Shown: piece after piece, positions 3,701-8,740 of the stretch
How positions within the stretch are numbered: position 1 is the first letter of the stretch
Layout of the letters: each line of letters opens with the position of its first letter
Assembly (NCBI RefSeq): GCF_001307315.1
Contig: NZ_LGUC01000001.1
Coordinates: 1,550,001 to 1,614,000, forward strand
DNA length: 64,000 nucleotides
Source: Halolamina pelagica
GTDB lineage: Archaea; Halobacteriota; Halobacteria; Halobacteriales; Haloferacaceae
Direction of reading: 5' to 3'
Notes under the pieces: model-generated
Seen by the model: only the letters and a program-made list of their open reading frames with translations
What the model was told of the DNA's origin: nothing
The model's database searches: none
Position numbers and translations under genes: made by a program

Positions 3701-4937
3701 ATGTCTCACGATATCGAGGGAGCGTCGGAATCCCCGGCGGATCGAGTTCTCCCAGGGCACGCTGAGAACTGATCCCGAGTTCGCCACGGCTCGGATCTTC
3801 GACACCACTCTGCGAGACGGTGAACAGTCGCCCCGTACGTCGTTCTCCTACGAGGACAAACGCGAGATAGCCGCGGCGCTTTCCGCCGCCGGCGTCGACG
3901 TGATCGAGGCGGGCTTCCCCGTGAACTCCGACGCGGAGTTCGCGGCGGTCCGCGACATCGCCTCGGCGGCCGACACGACGGTCTGTGGGTTGGCTCGCGT
4001 CGTCGAGGACGACGTGGAGGCCGCGATCGACGCCGGCGTCGACATGGTCCACACGTTCGCGTCGACCAGCGACGTGCAGATCGAGGACTCGATGCACGCC
4101 AGCCGCGCGGCCGTGCTCGAGCGTTCGGTCGCGAGCGTCGAACGCGCCGCCGAATCCGGGGCGGAAGTGATGTTCTCCCCCATGGACGCCACGCGGACCG
4201 ACCCCGACTACCTCTTCGACGTGGTCGAGGCGGTCTCGGCGGCCGGCGCCGACTGGATCAACGTCCCGGACACCTGCGGGGTCGCGACTCCCGACCGGTT
4301 CACGGCCCTGATCCGGGCGATCCGGGAGCACACGGACGCTCGGATCGACGTGCACACCCACGACGACTTCGGGCTCGCGAGCGCGAACGCGCTGGCGGGG
4401 TTCGAGGCCGGCGCGGACCAGGCGCAGGTCTCCGTCGGCGGCATCGGCGAGCGCGCCGGCAACGCCGCCTTCGAGCAGGTCGTCATGGCCGCCGAAAGCG
4501 TCTACGGCGCCGACACCGGGATCGACACGACCGCGATCACCGACCTCGCGCGTACGGTCGAAGCACACAGCGGCGTCGACCAGCCGCCCAACGCGCCGGT
4601 GATCGGCGACAACGCGTTCGCCCACGAGTCCGGCATCCACGCCGCGGGCGTCATCGAGAACGCGGCGACGTTCGAGCCCGGCGTGATGACCCCGGAGATG
4701 GTCGGTGCCGAGCGCGAACTCGTGTTGGGGAAACACACCGGTACCCACTCGGTCCGTGAGCGCCTGCACGAGGCGGGCTTCGACCCGACCGACGAGCAGG
4801 TGCGCGCGGTCACCCGCGAGGTGAAAGACCGCGGCGCCGACGGCGACGAGATCACCGACGACACGCTCGACGCCATCGCCGAGGCCCACGACGTGGACCG
4901 GGAACCCCAGCGGGTCACGGAGGGCGCGGCTCGATGA
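3701..4937 (+). CDS. leuA: 2-isopropylmalate synthase (LeuA-type acyltransferase)
   Basis: Condenses acetyl-CoA with 2-ketoisovalerate, the first committed step to leucine; a citramalate synthase role is the main alternative. The HMGL-like TIM barrel is clear: IFDTTLRDGEQSPRTSF near the N terminus (metal- and substrate-binding Arg-Asp), the metal ligands HTHDDFGLA, and GERAGNAAFE. The protein is about 412 residues and stops soon after the barrel and linker, so the C-terminal LeuA regulatory (leucine-binding) domain of classic 500-residue LeuA is absent. From ATG 3701 the first frame ends early; the frame must change near 3732-3737 (two missing bases or one extra) to enter RRIEFSQGTL. The exact N terminus is therefore uncertain. 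First gene of the leu/ilv cluster. Confidence 0.88.
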
Positions 4938-5008: not shown

Positions 5009-5016
5009 AGTTATCA
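5009..5016 (+). promoter_or_regulatory. TATA box of the ilvB leader
   Basis: AGTTATCA is centred about 27 bases before the ATG at 5040, preceded by an A/G-rich element GAAAAG. This is the spacing expected when transcription starts at or next to the start codon, so a new leaderless transcript probably begins at the small leader gene, inside the 241-base gap between leuA and ilvB. Confidence 0.5.
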
Positions 5017-5039
5017 CAGTCGCAATCCTCGGGTCGATT

Positions 5040-5108
5040 ATGACGCGTCGACGCCACACTCGTTCGCTCGGCGTCAGCGTCTCGCTCATCATTGTAGGGG
5101 CTGCCTGA
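5040..5108 (+). CDS. Putative 22-residue leader peptide upstream of ilvB
   Basis: A short frame from ATG 5040 to TGA 5106-5108. The product begins with a basic MTRRRHTRS stretch and ends in the hydrophobic, branched-chain-rich LGVSVSLIIVGAA. Four branched-chain codons in a row (Leu-Ile-Ile-Val) sit directly before or within the 5' arm of the hairpin at 5093-5116, and the stop codon forms its loop. This is the layout of an amino-acid-sensing attenuation leader for the ilvBN genes that follow 70 bases later. An alternative is a tiny membrane peptide. Translation is inferred from the well-placed TATA box; it is not shown. Confidence 0.5.
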   Translation: MTRRRHTRSLGVSVSLIIVGAA

Positions 5109-5116
5109 CCCCTACA
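5093..5116 (+). promoter_or_regulatory. Perfect hairpin at the end of the leader gene
   Basis: TGTAGGGG (5093-5100) pairs exactly with CCCCTACA (5109-5116) around the loop CTGCCTGA (5101-5108), which contains the leader stop codon. The stem overlaps the Val and Gly codons of the leader. No T-run follows, so it is not an ordinary archaeal U-tract terminator. A role in attenuation, pausing or RNA stability is inferred from its place. Confidence 0.6.
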
Positions 5117-5178
5117 CTACCCACTTCTGACCCGACCGTCGCATCACCCGACCAGCGAGCCTGCAGTCACCAGACACG

Positions 5179-6997
5179 ATGAGCGAGCCAGCACCCGCCG
5201 CGGCCCGACCCGCCGAGGGGGAACCGGAGCCACGGCACGACGACGACCGAGCGGAACCGAGCGACGAACAGCCGGCCGACCACGACGAGCCGTCCACGGC
5301 GACGACCGGCGCCGACGCCGCGATCGCGGCGCTCGAGGCGGCGGGCGTCGAGTACGTCTTCGGCGTGCAGGGCGGCGCGATCATGCCCGTCTACGACGCG
5401 CTCGCGGAGGCCGACGCGGCGCCGACCCACGTCACGATGGCCCACGAGCAGGCGGCCGCCCACGCCGCCGACGCGTACGGGCAGGTGACGGGGACCCCGG
5501 GCGTCTGCATGGCCACCTCCGGTCCGGGCGCGACGAACCTCGTCACGGGGATCGCCGACGCCGACATGGACTCCGACCCTCTCGTCGCGCTGACGGGCCA
5601 GGTGCCGACAGCGTTCCTGGGCAACGACGCGTTCCAGGAGACCGACACCGTCGGCGTCACCCGGCCGATCACGAAGGAGAACTACGTCGCGGGCGAGGCC
5701 GACGCCGTCGGCCCTGCGGTCGGCGAGGCGGTCGAACTCGCCGGCGCCGGCCGTCCCGGGCCGACGCTGGTCGACCTGCCGAAGGACGCCAGCACGGCCG
5801 CGATGACGACCGACGCCGATCCCGCGGCCGGGCTCCCTGAGTACTACGAGGCGCCCGAGCGCGCCGACGGGGCCGCGGTCGACGCCGCGGCCGACGCGTT
5901 CGCCCGGGCGGAGCGCCCGCTCGTGCTCGCGGGCGGCGGCGTCGTGAAGGCGGCGGCCAGCGAGGAGCTCCGGGCGTTCGTCGAGCGCTTCGACGTGCCC
6001 GTGGTGACGACGATGCCGGGCCTCGGGCGGTGCCGGAGGACGACGAGCGCTGTCTCTCCTTTGCGGGCATGCACGGCACCGGCGCCGCGAACATGGCGAT
6101 CTCACACACCGACTGCCTGTTCGCGATCGGGACGCGCTTCGACGACCGCCTCACGGGCGGCATCGAGACGTTCGCCCCGGAAGCCGAGGTGATCCACGCC
6201 GACATCGACGCCGCCGAGATCTCGAAGAACGTCGAGGCGGACTACCCGCTGGTCGGCGACGCCGCGGCGGTGGTCACCCAGGTCCACGACGCGATCGACG
6301 CGCGGTCGGAGACGGACGGCCACGCGGCGTGGCGCGAGCAGTGCCGCGAGTGGGAGGAGACCTACCCCATGACGTACGCGGCGCCTGACGACGAGCCGCT
6401 GAAGCCGCAGTTCGTCGTCGAGGCCGCCGATGCGGCGACGCCAGAGGACGCGATCGTCACCACCGGCGTCGGCCAGCACCAGATGTGGGCCGCCCAGTAC
6501 TGGACGTACCGCGACCCGCGCTGCTGGGTCTCTAGCCACGGGCTGGGAACCATGGGCTACGGCCTGCCGGCCGCGATCGGTGCCAAGGTGGCCGCCCCGA
6601 GCGGGAGGTCGTCTGCTTCGAGGGCGACGGCTCGTTCATGATGACGCTGCAGGAGCTCTCGGTCGCCGCGCGGGAGAACCTGGACGTGACGGTGATCGTC
6701 CTCAACAACGAGGCGATCGGGATGGTCCGGCAGTGGCAGGACGCCTTCTTCGAGGGCCGCCACACCGCCTCGGAGTACGGTTGGATGCCCGAGTTCGAGG
6801 CGATCGCCGAGGCGTTCGGCGCGAAGGGGTTCACCCTCGAGCGCTACGACGCGGTGGCCGACACGCTCGAAGCGGCGTTCGCCCACGACGGCCCGTCGGT
6901 CGTCGACGCCCGGATCGACCCGGACGAGAACGTCTACCCGATGGTTCCGAGCGGCGGCGACAACAGCGGCTTCGCGCTCTCGGAGGCCCAGTTATGA
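5179..6997 (+). CDS. ilvB: Acetolactate synthase, large subunit
   Basis: ThDP- and FAD-dependent enzyme that makes acetolactate or acetohydroxybutyrate from pyruvate, opening valine and isoleucine synthesis. About 606 residues: an acidic, low-complexity N-terminal extension (about 45 aa, commonly seen in haloarchaea), then the Pyr domain ([15 protein letters not shown]; catalytic Glu in [15 protein letters not shown]), the central domain, and the PP domain with [10 protein letters not shown]-type GDG metal-binding motif and [13 protein letters not shown]. Two frame breaks occur. Adding one G at 6025-6027 restores [12 protein letters not shown], and one C at 6595-6598 restores [16 protein letters not shown]. 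The TGA overlaps the ilvN ATG (ATGA). Confidence 0.93.
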
Positions 6998-7716
6998 GCC
7001 GGGAGCGCGCCGACGCTGAGTTCGCGACCCGCGACGCCAGCCGGGACGGCCTGACCGGGCCGGGACCGGACGATCGCGACCGGCCGCGCGGGCGACGCTC
7101 GTCGGAGGGCGTCCGGGTCGACCCCGAGGCCGAGGCCAGCCACCCGGAGCGACGAGCCACCATCTCGGCGCTGGTCAAACACGAACCCGGCGTGCTGGCG
7201 GAGGTCGCGGGGCTGGTGAGCCGCCGCCGGTTCGACATCGACTCGCTGACCGTTGGCCCGACGACCAACCCCGAGACCGCCCGGATGACGCTGACGATCG
7301 AGGAGCCGGAGCCGGGCGTCCGGCAGGTCGAGAAGCAGCTGGAGAAGCTGGTGCCGGTGATCTCGGTTCGCGAGCTGGGCCGGGATGCGGTCCGGCGCGA
7401 GCTGGCGGTGCTGAAAGTCCACGACGACCGGCCCGCCGCCGTCGAGTCGGTCGCCGAGATGTTCGACTGCCGAGTGCTCGACGCCGAGCCCGGGACGGTG
7501 ACCGTCGAGGCGACGGGGAGCTCCGCGGAGATCGACCGGGCGATCGAGGCGTTCCAGCGCTTCAGCGTCCGGGAGCTGACTCGAACCGGGACTGCGGCGC
7601 TGGCCCGCGGGACCGAGTGGACCACCGACGCCGAGGAGGAGCGCTACGAACGACCGCGGATCGACGCGGCATCGAGCCACACAACGGCGCCGAAGGCGCC
7701 GACGACCGATGACTGA
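6994..7716 (+). CDS. ilvN: Acetolactate synthase, small (regulatory) subunit
   Basis: Regulatory partner of IlvB that confers valine feedback inhibition and raises activity. 240 residues, longer than bacterial IlvN (about 160) because of an acidic and basic mixed N-terminal extension of about 45 residues before the ACT domain ([20 protein letters not shown], then [11 protein letters not shown]). A second ferredoxin-like C-terminal domain follows ([10 protein letters not shown] to [13 protein letters not shown]). A charged tail of about 40 residues ends the protein. The start ATG overlaps the ilvB stop, and its end overlaps the ilvC start by 8 bases, so translational coupling is likely. Confidence 0.93.
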
Positions 7717-8740
7717 GAACACGATCTACCACGACGACGACGCGGCGCACAGCTACATCGAGGAGAAGACGGTCGCGGTGCTCGGCTACGGCAGCCAGGG
7801 CCACGCCCACGCCCAGAACCTCGCGGAGAGCGGGGTCGACGTTATCGTCGGCCTTCGCGAGGGGTCGGCCTCCCGCTCGGCGGCCCGCGAGGACGGGCTC
7901 ACCGTCGCGACGCCGACCGAGGCCGCTGCCGCCGCCGACGTGGTGTCGATGCTCGTCCCGGACACCGTCCAGCCCGACGTGTACGCGGCGATCGAGTCGG
8001 AACTGGCGGCGGGGGATACGCTCCAGTTCGCCCACGGGTTCAACGTCCATTACGACCAGATCGAACCGCCCGAGGACGTGGACGTGACGATGGTCGCGCC
8101 GAAGGGGCCGGGCCACATCGTCCGCCGGCAGTACGCCGCCGGCGAGGGGACGCCCGGGCTGCTCGCGGTGTACCGCGACGCCACGGGCGAGGCCAGACAG
8201 GAGGCGCTGGCGTACGCCGACGCCATCGGCTGCACCCGAGCGGGCGTCATCGAGACCACGTTCCGCGAGGAGACCGAGACCGACCTGTTCGGCGAGCAGG
8301 CGGTGCTCTGTGGCGGCGTCACCGAGCTCGTGAAGGCGGGCTACGAGACGCTGACCGACGCCGGCTACAGCGAGGAGATGGCGTACTTCGAGTGTCTGAA
8401 CGAGCTCAAACTCATCGTCGATCTGCTGTACGAGGGCGGGATGAGCGGGATGTGGGACTCCGTCTCGGACACCGCCGAGTACGGCGGGCTCACCCGCGGC
8501 GAGGTGGTCGTCGACGACCACACGCGCAAGCAGATGGAGACTGTCCTCGAGGACGTTCAGAACGGCGAGTTCGCCCGCGAGTGGATCGCCGAGAACCAGG
8601 CCGGCCGGCCGTCCTACGGCCAGCGCCGCCGCGCCGAGAAGGCCCACGACATCGAGGACGTGGGCGAGGAGCTCCGTGGCCTGTTCGCCTGGAGCGAGGA
8701 GTCGCACCGAGAGAAAGCCAACGCGCCCGCAGACGACTGA
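7709..8740 (+). CDS. ilvC: Ketol-acid reductoisomerase
   Basis: NADPH-dependent enzyme that isomerises and reduces acetolactate or acetohydroxybutyrate, the second common step in valine and isoleucine synthesis. 343 residues, the class I length. The Rossmann motif is [17 protein letters not shown] (residues about 26-42), then the substrate site [12 protein letters not shown] and the knotted helical domain with Mg ligands in [17 protein letters not shown] and the later [12 protein letters not shown]. Start ATG 7709 lies inside the end of ilvN. The C-terminal tail is charged and longer than needed for the fold. Confidence 0.96.

Follow-up and report, generated by a model that had tools for sequence, protein, structure and literature searches.

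A conserved short reading frame with a hairpin at its stop codon precedes ilvB across Halobacteria: a putative ribosome-controlled attenuator

Upstream of ilvB, the gene for the large subunit of acetolactate synthase, haloarchaea carry a short, leaderless-looking open reading frame (ORF) with isoleucine and valine codons near its end and a GC-rich hairpin at its stop codon; that this arrangement is real and conserved across the class Halobacteria is confirmed by the comparisons given below. It is described here from a window of Halolamina pelagica, by which we mean the whole stretch of 64,000 nucleotides that was analysed. The reading we favour, with a probability of roughly 0.65, is that of a transcription attenuator under ribosome control, by which the ilv(-leu) operon would respond to charged Ile- and Val-tRNA. 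Its two parts deserve separate confidence: judged from the codons, the leader before ilvB very probably acts as a sensor of charged Ile- and Val-tRNA, whereas transcription, by way of a putative termination, is the controlled step only on a fair balance of probability.

Attenuation under the control of a translating ribosome belongs to the textbook mechanisms of bacteria and needs close coupling of transcription and translation. The physical basis of such coupling in archaea is left as a hypothesis in the available part of the relevant source (PMC11616081). If true, a class-wide archaeal attenuator would show that coupling is used for regulation in archaea, and the leader would offer a natural reporter for FttA and for hairpin termination; it would also suggest how haloarchaea control the synthesis of branched-chain amino acids and, in one family, valyl-tRNA synthetase. 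The control principle is known from bacteria. Among the matches listed from the open-licence PubMed Central literature, no archaeal leader-peptide attenuator is in print, in agreement with the first-pass annotation of this DNA, which knew of no such leader in archaea, and within those matches the haloarchaeal leader is new for the domain.

The leader and its locus

In the window, the leader ORF lies between leuA and ilvB (Table 1). The TATA box had been called well placed in the first-pass annotation, and it is: GTTATC stands 30 nt before the ATG. Equally correct was the claim that branched-chain codons overlap the 5' arm of a perfect 8-bp hairpin; the Leu-Ile-Ile-Val codons (5085-5096) share their last bases with the 5' arm of a perfect stem (TGTAGGGG/CCCCTACA; 5093-5100 with 5109-5116). 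The further statement that the gene ends in these codons needs correction; they are found where they had been placed, but Gly-Ala-Ala follows them before the TGA.

Table 1. Features of the leader and of the genes that follow it in the window
Feature	Position	Strand	Basis and remarks
TATA-like box GTTATC	5010..5015	+	sequence; 30 nt ahead of ATG 5040
Leader ORF MTRRRHTRSLGVSVSLIIVGAA and stop, 22 codons	5040..5108	+	probably translated from a leaderless mRNA
Control codons CTC ATC ATT GTA (Leu-Ile-Ile-Val)	5085..5096	+	sequence; class-wide core is ATY-GTA
Gly-Ala-Ala after the control codons, then TGA stop	TGA 5106-5108	+	sequence
Hairpin, 5' arm TGTAGGGG	5093..5100	+	sequence and folding
Hairpin, loop CTGCCTGA, 8 nt, TGA stop at its end	5101..5108	+	sequence
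Hairpin, 3' arm CCCCTACA	5109..5116	+	sequence and folding
G-free pyrimidine-rich tract, 20 nt, terminator- or pause-like	5109..5128	+	U-rich TTCT at 5125-5128
ilvB, acetolactate synthase large subunit, regulated gene (putative)	5179..6997	+	ORFs and NCBIfam
ilvN	about 6994-7716	+	gene name from reading the ORF sequence
ilvC	7709-8740	+	gene name from reading the ORF sequence

The NCBIfam acetolactate synthase models match the first open piece of ilvB (5179-6036), and ilvB probably forms one operon with the downstream ilvN and ilvC (6994..8740). The nearest named IlvB relatives belong to Halolamina (H. rubra, 92% identity), a comparison that may leave out the window's own records. The ilvB frame is broken twice, near 6030 and near 6640; in six relatives of the same genus the frames are open (628-636 amino acids), and the two breaks are probably assembly errors, the completeness of the genome being given as 80%.

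The 37-nt piece containing the hairpin folds with -13.8 kcal/mol (z -3.0), a stability reached by two of 200 shuffled sequences, while that of the whole 139-nt leader is unexceptional (z -1.2; 24/200 shuffles as good). A covariance model built from 103 distinct leaders (R1) recognises the site with 52.5 bits (E 8e-10), the next best place in the window scoring 10.3 bits; since the window leader is itself one of the 103 training sequences, the argument against chance has to rest on conservation in other genomes. A chance ORF meeting a chance hairpin is what one might suspect at first, short ORFs and GC-rich hairpins being common in GC-rich genomes; the class-wide conservation and the frame control presented in the following sections refute this explanation, to which we give next to no weight.

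Conservation across Halobacteria

Of the 148 genomes of the family, 145 yielded an ilvB place, as did 211 of 212 in the class; from these a set of 115 upstream regions (L005-L119, one per genome) was assembled, 55 of them being the best-scoring ilvB places and 60 being chosen for the spread of genera and families. A short leaderless-looking ORF ending in [Ile/Leu]-[Val/Ile]-Gly, one to three further codons and a stop was found in 110 of these 115 regions, and in the same 110 a hairpin of the GGGG/CCCC type is placed at the stop codon. The search pattern demanded Ile, Leu or Val before Gly and gave a bonus score for GTAGGGG; leaders with other codons could therefore be missed only among the five leftover loci, three of which hold variants: a displaced stop (L090), Val-Phe-Val ahead of a second ilvB (L108), and six extra bases separating Ile-Ile-Gly from the core (L030). 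In the remaining two of the 115 upstream regions examined (L046, L064) no leader was seen. Seven of the 110 leaders with an identical core stretch were removed, and the counts below refer to the 103 distinct leaders.

A separate set of 80 named loci, comprising among others records of Haloarcula, Halorubrum, Halococcus, Natrinema, Natronococcus, Halobiforma and Actinarchaeum, contains the leader in 73 and, with a displaced stop, in six more (L221, L223, L225, L236, L244, L250); the last locus (L205) shows no leader in the only 474 nt of upstream sequence it offers. At E <= 0.05, R1 matches 113 of 116 Halobacteria genomes, all except G033, G154 and G159; the genome set and the two sets of loci share species. 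In a sample of the whole phylum, matches at E <= 0.01 occur in 40 of 246 genomes, and all 40 are Halobacteria; outside the class no match was obtained at this threshold with stricter filters, a search which weaker or rearranged forms could escape. The best R1 matches that were compared by eye sit just upstream of ilvB and on the same strand in 20 of 20 cases. We speak of haloarchaeal IVG-stop leaders, defined by the ATY-GTA-GGG core, an in-frame stop, the GGGG/CCCC stem and a position upstream of ilvB or valS; the window leader shows all four and belongs to the sequences from which the class was defined. The first-pass annotation had tied its proposal to conservation of the small frame and of the stem in relatives, with branched-chain codons retained and stem changes compensated, and all of this has been found (110/115 ilvB loci, 113/116 genomes; for the paired stem changes see below).

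Promoter and reading frame

The start codon selected by its TATA box is an ATG in 102 of the 103 leaders. The distance from TATA to ATG is 30-36 nt in 102 and precisely 33 nt in 64, numbers which are inflated by the choice of the start on the best TATA and for which a comparison of the three frames serves as control: in the core frame, 92 of 103 leaders have an ATG that stands 28-36 nt behind a TATA-like hexamer and is followed by no stop before the core, as compared to none (0 and 0/103) in the two shifted frames. These frame statistics predict a short ORF directly after the promoter, which is one feature of an attenuator. Leader lengths range from 19 to 42 codons in 102 cases, with a single leader of 52. 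Of the 103 leader promoters, 90 contain a TATA-like hexamer, whereas the control windows contain none and the 101 spacers that separate leader and ilvB likewise none, from which it follows that ilvB is most simply transcribed through the leader; transcription starting at ilvB itself, named in the first-pass annotation as an observation that would overturn its proposal, has left no such trace.

The body of the leader shows no clear third-position bias in its substitutions, hence selection at the protein level is visible solely at the C-terminal end. A protein-coding gene with a conserved product was considered and rejected on these grounds, that end alone being shared. One could also regard ATYGTAGGGG...CCCC as an operator or as a protein site on DNA or RNA, bound by a repressor and overlapped by an incidental ORF, and the constancy of GTAGGGG, which among the 103 sequences only L012, L014 and L048 lack, would suit such a site. 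We hold it to be very improbable: the frame extends from a TATA-spaced ATG to the core in the 92 leaders just mentioned and no other frame does so, the stem covaries with the third base of the stop codon, and ATT is changed to TTC in most leaders before valS (both described below).

Control codons

An Ile or Leu codon followed by a Val or Ile codon occupies the same place in all 103 leaders (the search pattern, as stated, demanded Ile, Leu or Val before Gly). At the Ile position ATT occurs in 81 leaders, ATC in 21 and CTC in one; at the Val position GTA in 101, with ATT and ATC once each; and the Gly codon is GGG in 103 of 103. Both preferred codons are rare in these organisms, GTA accounting for 18 of 1448 Val codons (1.2%) and ATT for 33 of 563 Ile codons (5.9%) in 69 gene segments. 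Pairing alone does not explain the retention of GTA, which is kept in 101/103 leaders although in 32 of 102 the stem stops at GGGG/CCCC, with no pair beyond. Over the five residues before Gly, 68% are Ile, Leu or Val as compared to 16% in the remaining leader, and the exceptions among ilvB leaders are swaps within the branched-chain residues (Ile-Ile in L012 and L014, Leu-Val in L114). Many leaders have just two or three branched-chain codons near the stop, a small number beside those of bacterial leaders.

A C-terminal end conserved as residues, with Gly invariably encoded by GGG, together with the basic character of the leader bodies (K+R 12.9% vs D+E 5.3%), could point to an arrest peptide, in which the nascent ..Ile-Val-Gly-Ala would bind a branched-chain amino acid or metabolite inside the tunnel and so stall the ribosome, with codon supply in a secondary role. 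This seems improbable to us, as conservation is limited to three or four residues, Val is held to a codon of 1.2% usage, for which a peptide mechanism has no need, and the leaders before valS have Phe, Leu or Arg at the Ile position.

The hairpin and the tract behind it

The GGGG/CCCC core of the stem is nearly invariant, and for this reason the covariation term of RNAalifold is 0 for the leader alignment. The base after GGGG and the base before CCCC form C-G in 67 leaders, T-A in 16 and T-G in five, and are unpaired in 14 of 102. In 83 of 103 leaders CCCC immediately follows the stop codon, whose last base is then the potential partner: C goes with TAG in 60, T with TAA or TGA in 12, T with TAG in five (a wobble pair) and C with TAA or TGA in six. 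The base after GGGG accordingly tracks the last stop-codon base (C-G or T-A in 72/83; Fisher p 8e-7, uncorrected for kinship). A paired change within the stem, from GGGGC/GCCCC to GGGCC/GGCCC, is seen in one ilvB leader (L048), in one named record (L239) and in four valS leaders (L136, L143, L146, L150). In seven loci, the six of the named set and L090, the stop is displaced from the loop, and the ORF runs on for one to three codons past the stem with the frame kept; the stop therefore need not be in the loop, and the ribosome's last codons still overlap the stem. Two loci (L083, L089) have both stops and are possible intermediates.

Downstream of CCCC, G falls to 0-8% at each of positions 1-17 and returns from position 18, as compared to 34% in the body of the leader ORF and 36% in the region upstream of the TATA box; the profile covers 102 leaders, L048, which lacks CCCC, being excluded. 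T reaches a peak of 42-63% at positions 12-14. The longest T-run in the 103 leaders is one nucleotide in 7, two in 45, three in 24, four in 25 and five in 2. The remark in the first-pass annotation that the hairpin lacks a T-run is accurate, but the G-free, pyrimidine-rich tract of 20 nt with its TTCT (Table 1) had been overlooked. A GC-rich hairpin is present, then, whereas the immediate U-run of a bacterial intrinsic terminator is replaced by U enrichment 12-14 nt downstream of CCCC, which resembles the spacing of a pause hairpin more than that of a bacterial terminator. An archaeal terminator need not resemble a bacterial one. The window leader, when folded, shows no evident antiterminator hairpin, and hardly any G occurs in the 17 nt after CCCC.

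The lack of a T-run leaves room for the same sensor with another output, namely a hairpin acting after transcription on mRNA processing, mRNA stability or ilvB translation, and the distance of 36-392 nt between the leader stop and the beginning of the ilvB match is likewise compatible, since the hairpin need not act on polymerase near ilvB. The same variable distance, on the other hand, disfavours direct occlusion of the start or simple reinitiation, and it is not obvious what part a G-free tract with such sharp borders and a U peak at constant distance could play in translation. On these grounds a post-transcriptional output appears unlikely to us, while being the strongest of the rivals.

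A related leader before valS

A second R1 match exists in 19 genomes, and all 19 loci were inspected. In 18 of them the match precedes the valyl-tRNA synthetase gene valS, as read from the ORFs; the identity of valS was tested for one locus, L134 (NCBIfam TIGR00422 and NF009687), in whose genome (G152) PF00133 also matches at this place. The nineteenth (L138 in G190) was rejected as a leader, the longest forward frame after it holding no recognisable valS or ilv gene. The 18 valS leaders end in (Val)-Phe/Leu/Arg-Val-Gly-(Ala/Pro)-x-stop: GTA is always kept, Ile never occurs at the Ile position, and in most of them ATT has become TTC. Their TATA boxes are weak. The second ilvB copy in G192 (L108, 937-996) also carries a leader of the valS type (Val-Phe-Val-Gly-Ala-Ala-stop).

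These leaders occur mainly in one family. With a model built from the valS leaders plus L108 (R2), strong matches (E <= 6e-8) were obtained in 27 of 116 genomes, of which G167 belongs to f7 and all others to family f4; 17 of the 27 are training genomes of R2, the matches in the other ten being candidate leaders of this type, and some weaker R2 matches are ilvB leaders. The codon content tracks the gene, Ile being lost and Val-GTA kept before valS, which argues for the sensing of charged tRNA; in our view, this correspondence of codons and gene identity is the best evidence to suggest that the leader reads tRNA charging.

Other synthetase and biosynthesis loci

Leaders of the IVG type were sought before further genes. 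In seven genomes none was found before ileS or leuS, and in six of the seven (all but G152) none before valS, the three genes being told apart by reading and by their PF00133 score; at two loci (L155, L156) three unrelated stem-bearing ORFs turned up. Before trpC, 15 genomes showed no Trp leader, the criterion being a TATA-spaced ORF whose end lies no more than about 600 nt ahead of the match.

Before pheS, a leader ORF ending in Phe codons is present in 22 of 30 loci (L264-L293; the window's own genome is L286), 15 of the 22 containing GFGFFF; in most cases a T-rich TATA-like hexamer precedes the ATG by 29-32 nt. The hairpin at their stop codon is non-significant (mean z -0.3 over 22 leaders) and is not followed by a G-free tract, wherefore we do not class them as the same element. 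Before trpS, a short ORF of the form MVFAL..W-L-x-V-x-R-(L/I)-T-P-stop with a single Trp codon is conserved in six of the ten loci taken as trpS (L308, L310, L312, L315, L316, L323), at most two ORFs per locus being viewed and gene identity being tested for L312 only.

The leuA gene of the window (3701-4937) has no normal start. An ATG 32-35 nt after a TATA-like hexamer (3701 in the window) opens an ORF of 21-29 amino acids (..RVLPGH..-like) in 12 of 15 genomes (L342-L356), which overlaps the leuA frame (..EFFQGTL..-like) in another frame, and in five of the 15 the leuA frame has no ATG, GTG or TTG within about 220 nt upstream. This suggests +1 frameshifting or a non-AUG start, possibly controlled by leucine. 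A start problem, ribosomal slippage and a link to leucine have already been raised as speculation for leuA2 (HVO_1510), according to the available text (PMC8305020).

Proposed mechanism

The conserved frame, the promoter, the control codons, the stem and the G-free tract with its U peak are read from the sequence; translation of the leader, stalling, termination and the direction of the response are what we infer from them. Given the TATA spacing, transcription would start just before or at the leader AUG, and ribosomes would load on the leaderless 5' end. With enough charged Ile- and Val-tRNA, the ribosome would complete the leader and be released at the stop codon, leaving the GGGG arm free to pair with CCCC behind RNA polymerase; hairpin and nearly G-free C/U tract, with its U peak 12-14 nt downstream, would then cause pausing or termination of the polymerase ahead of ilvB, perhaps aided by the archaeal factor FttA/aCPSF1. 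The distance from stem to U peak also fits a pause hairpin. When Ile- or Val-tRNA is short, the ribosome would be parked on the rare AUU and GUA codons; a ribosome stalled with an Ile or Val codon in its A site covers about the next dozen bases, and so the 5' arm would be covered, no hairpin would form and transcription would proceed into ilvB. The ribosome itself would be the antiterminator, rendering an antiterminator hairpin unnecessary, and the hairpin would report its departure.

Data from Haloferax volcanii lend some plausibility to the terminating step; in the part of the study available, a hairpin motif, tested apart from a T-stretch motif, ended 59% of transcripts in vivo, the efficient terminator T5C reaching 95% (PMC7237163). 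That FttA and a coupled ribosome exclude each other sterically is a proposed hypothesis, and FttA is stated to prefer U-rich RNA (PMC11616081, available text); compared with this preference, the G-free tract of the leader is only partly U-rich. Ribosome-controlled attenuation, the reading already offered in the first-pass annotation, gains support from the conserved frame and stem, from spacers before ilvB that are free of TATA-like hexamers and from the valS leader with Val kept and Ile lost. Beyond ilvB, we offer tentatively, as a serious possibility short of a probable one, that haloarchaea may have independently evolved a family of leader-peptide switches that respond to tRNA charging, with Ile-Val read ahead of ilvB, Val ahead of valS, Phe ahead of pheS, perhaps also Trp ahead of trpS, and a frame switch linked to leucine at leuA, where in the ilvB and valS leaders a stalled ribosome would keep a termination hairpin open and thereby couple translation to archaeal termination, perhaps via FttA.

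Comparison with known systems

In the enterobacterial ilvGMEDA, leu and pheST attenuators, control codons stand for the product or the cognate tRNA and a stalled ribosome selects the RNA structure by favouring an antiterminator, a U-run terminator ending the leader. Control codons and a stalled ribosome deciding the structure are likewise proposed for the haloarchaeal leader; in contrast, the ribosome on it would itself cover the hairpin, and a U-run is lacking. T-box riboswitches stand before aminoacyl-tRNA synthetase and amino-acid genes and answer tRNA charging. The haloarchaeal leader would do the same, one form of it standing before the synthetase gene valS, with the difference that sensing would be by the translating ribosome. 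A known Rfam element was rejected: between 4700 and 5700 of the window no Rfam family matches at E <= 1, the ilvB-associated motifs included, and no T-box was detected there, the two matches of cmscan up to E 5 (both E 3.5) being to other families.

Haloferax volcanii provides two further comparisons. In its hairpin-assisted termination the hairpin similarly lies just upstream of the RNA 3' end, and the description, as far as available, makes no link to a uORF or to regulation (PMC7237163). Among long 5'-UTRs of this species, uORFs are listed before trpS (23 amino acids) and pheS (26 amino acids); ilvB is absent from that table, which is confined to 5'-UTRs of 150-250 nt, and in the available part of the source the uORFs come without regulatory role or codon content (PMC4983044). 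A close parallel is the ilvBNC leader of Corynebacterium (ilvB-II motif), a uORF before ilvB which is rich in branched-chain codons and, in the available text, is thought to work through transcription attenuation (PMC10272879, PMC11857589). That system is bacterial and is discussed with a three-hairpin model (PMC10272879, available part), whereas the haloarchaeal leader has one small hairpin around the stop, no antiterminator that could be seen, an archaeal TATA promoter and a leaderless-looking start. Even without a U-run and without a visible antiterminator, the haloarchaeal leader would by analogy work like the leader-peptide attenuation of the bacterial ilv operons.
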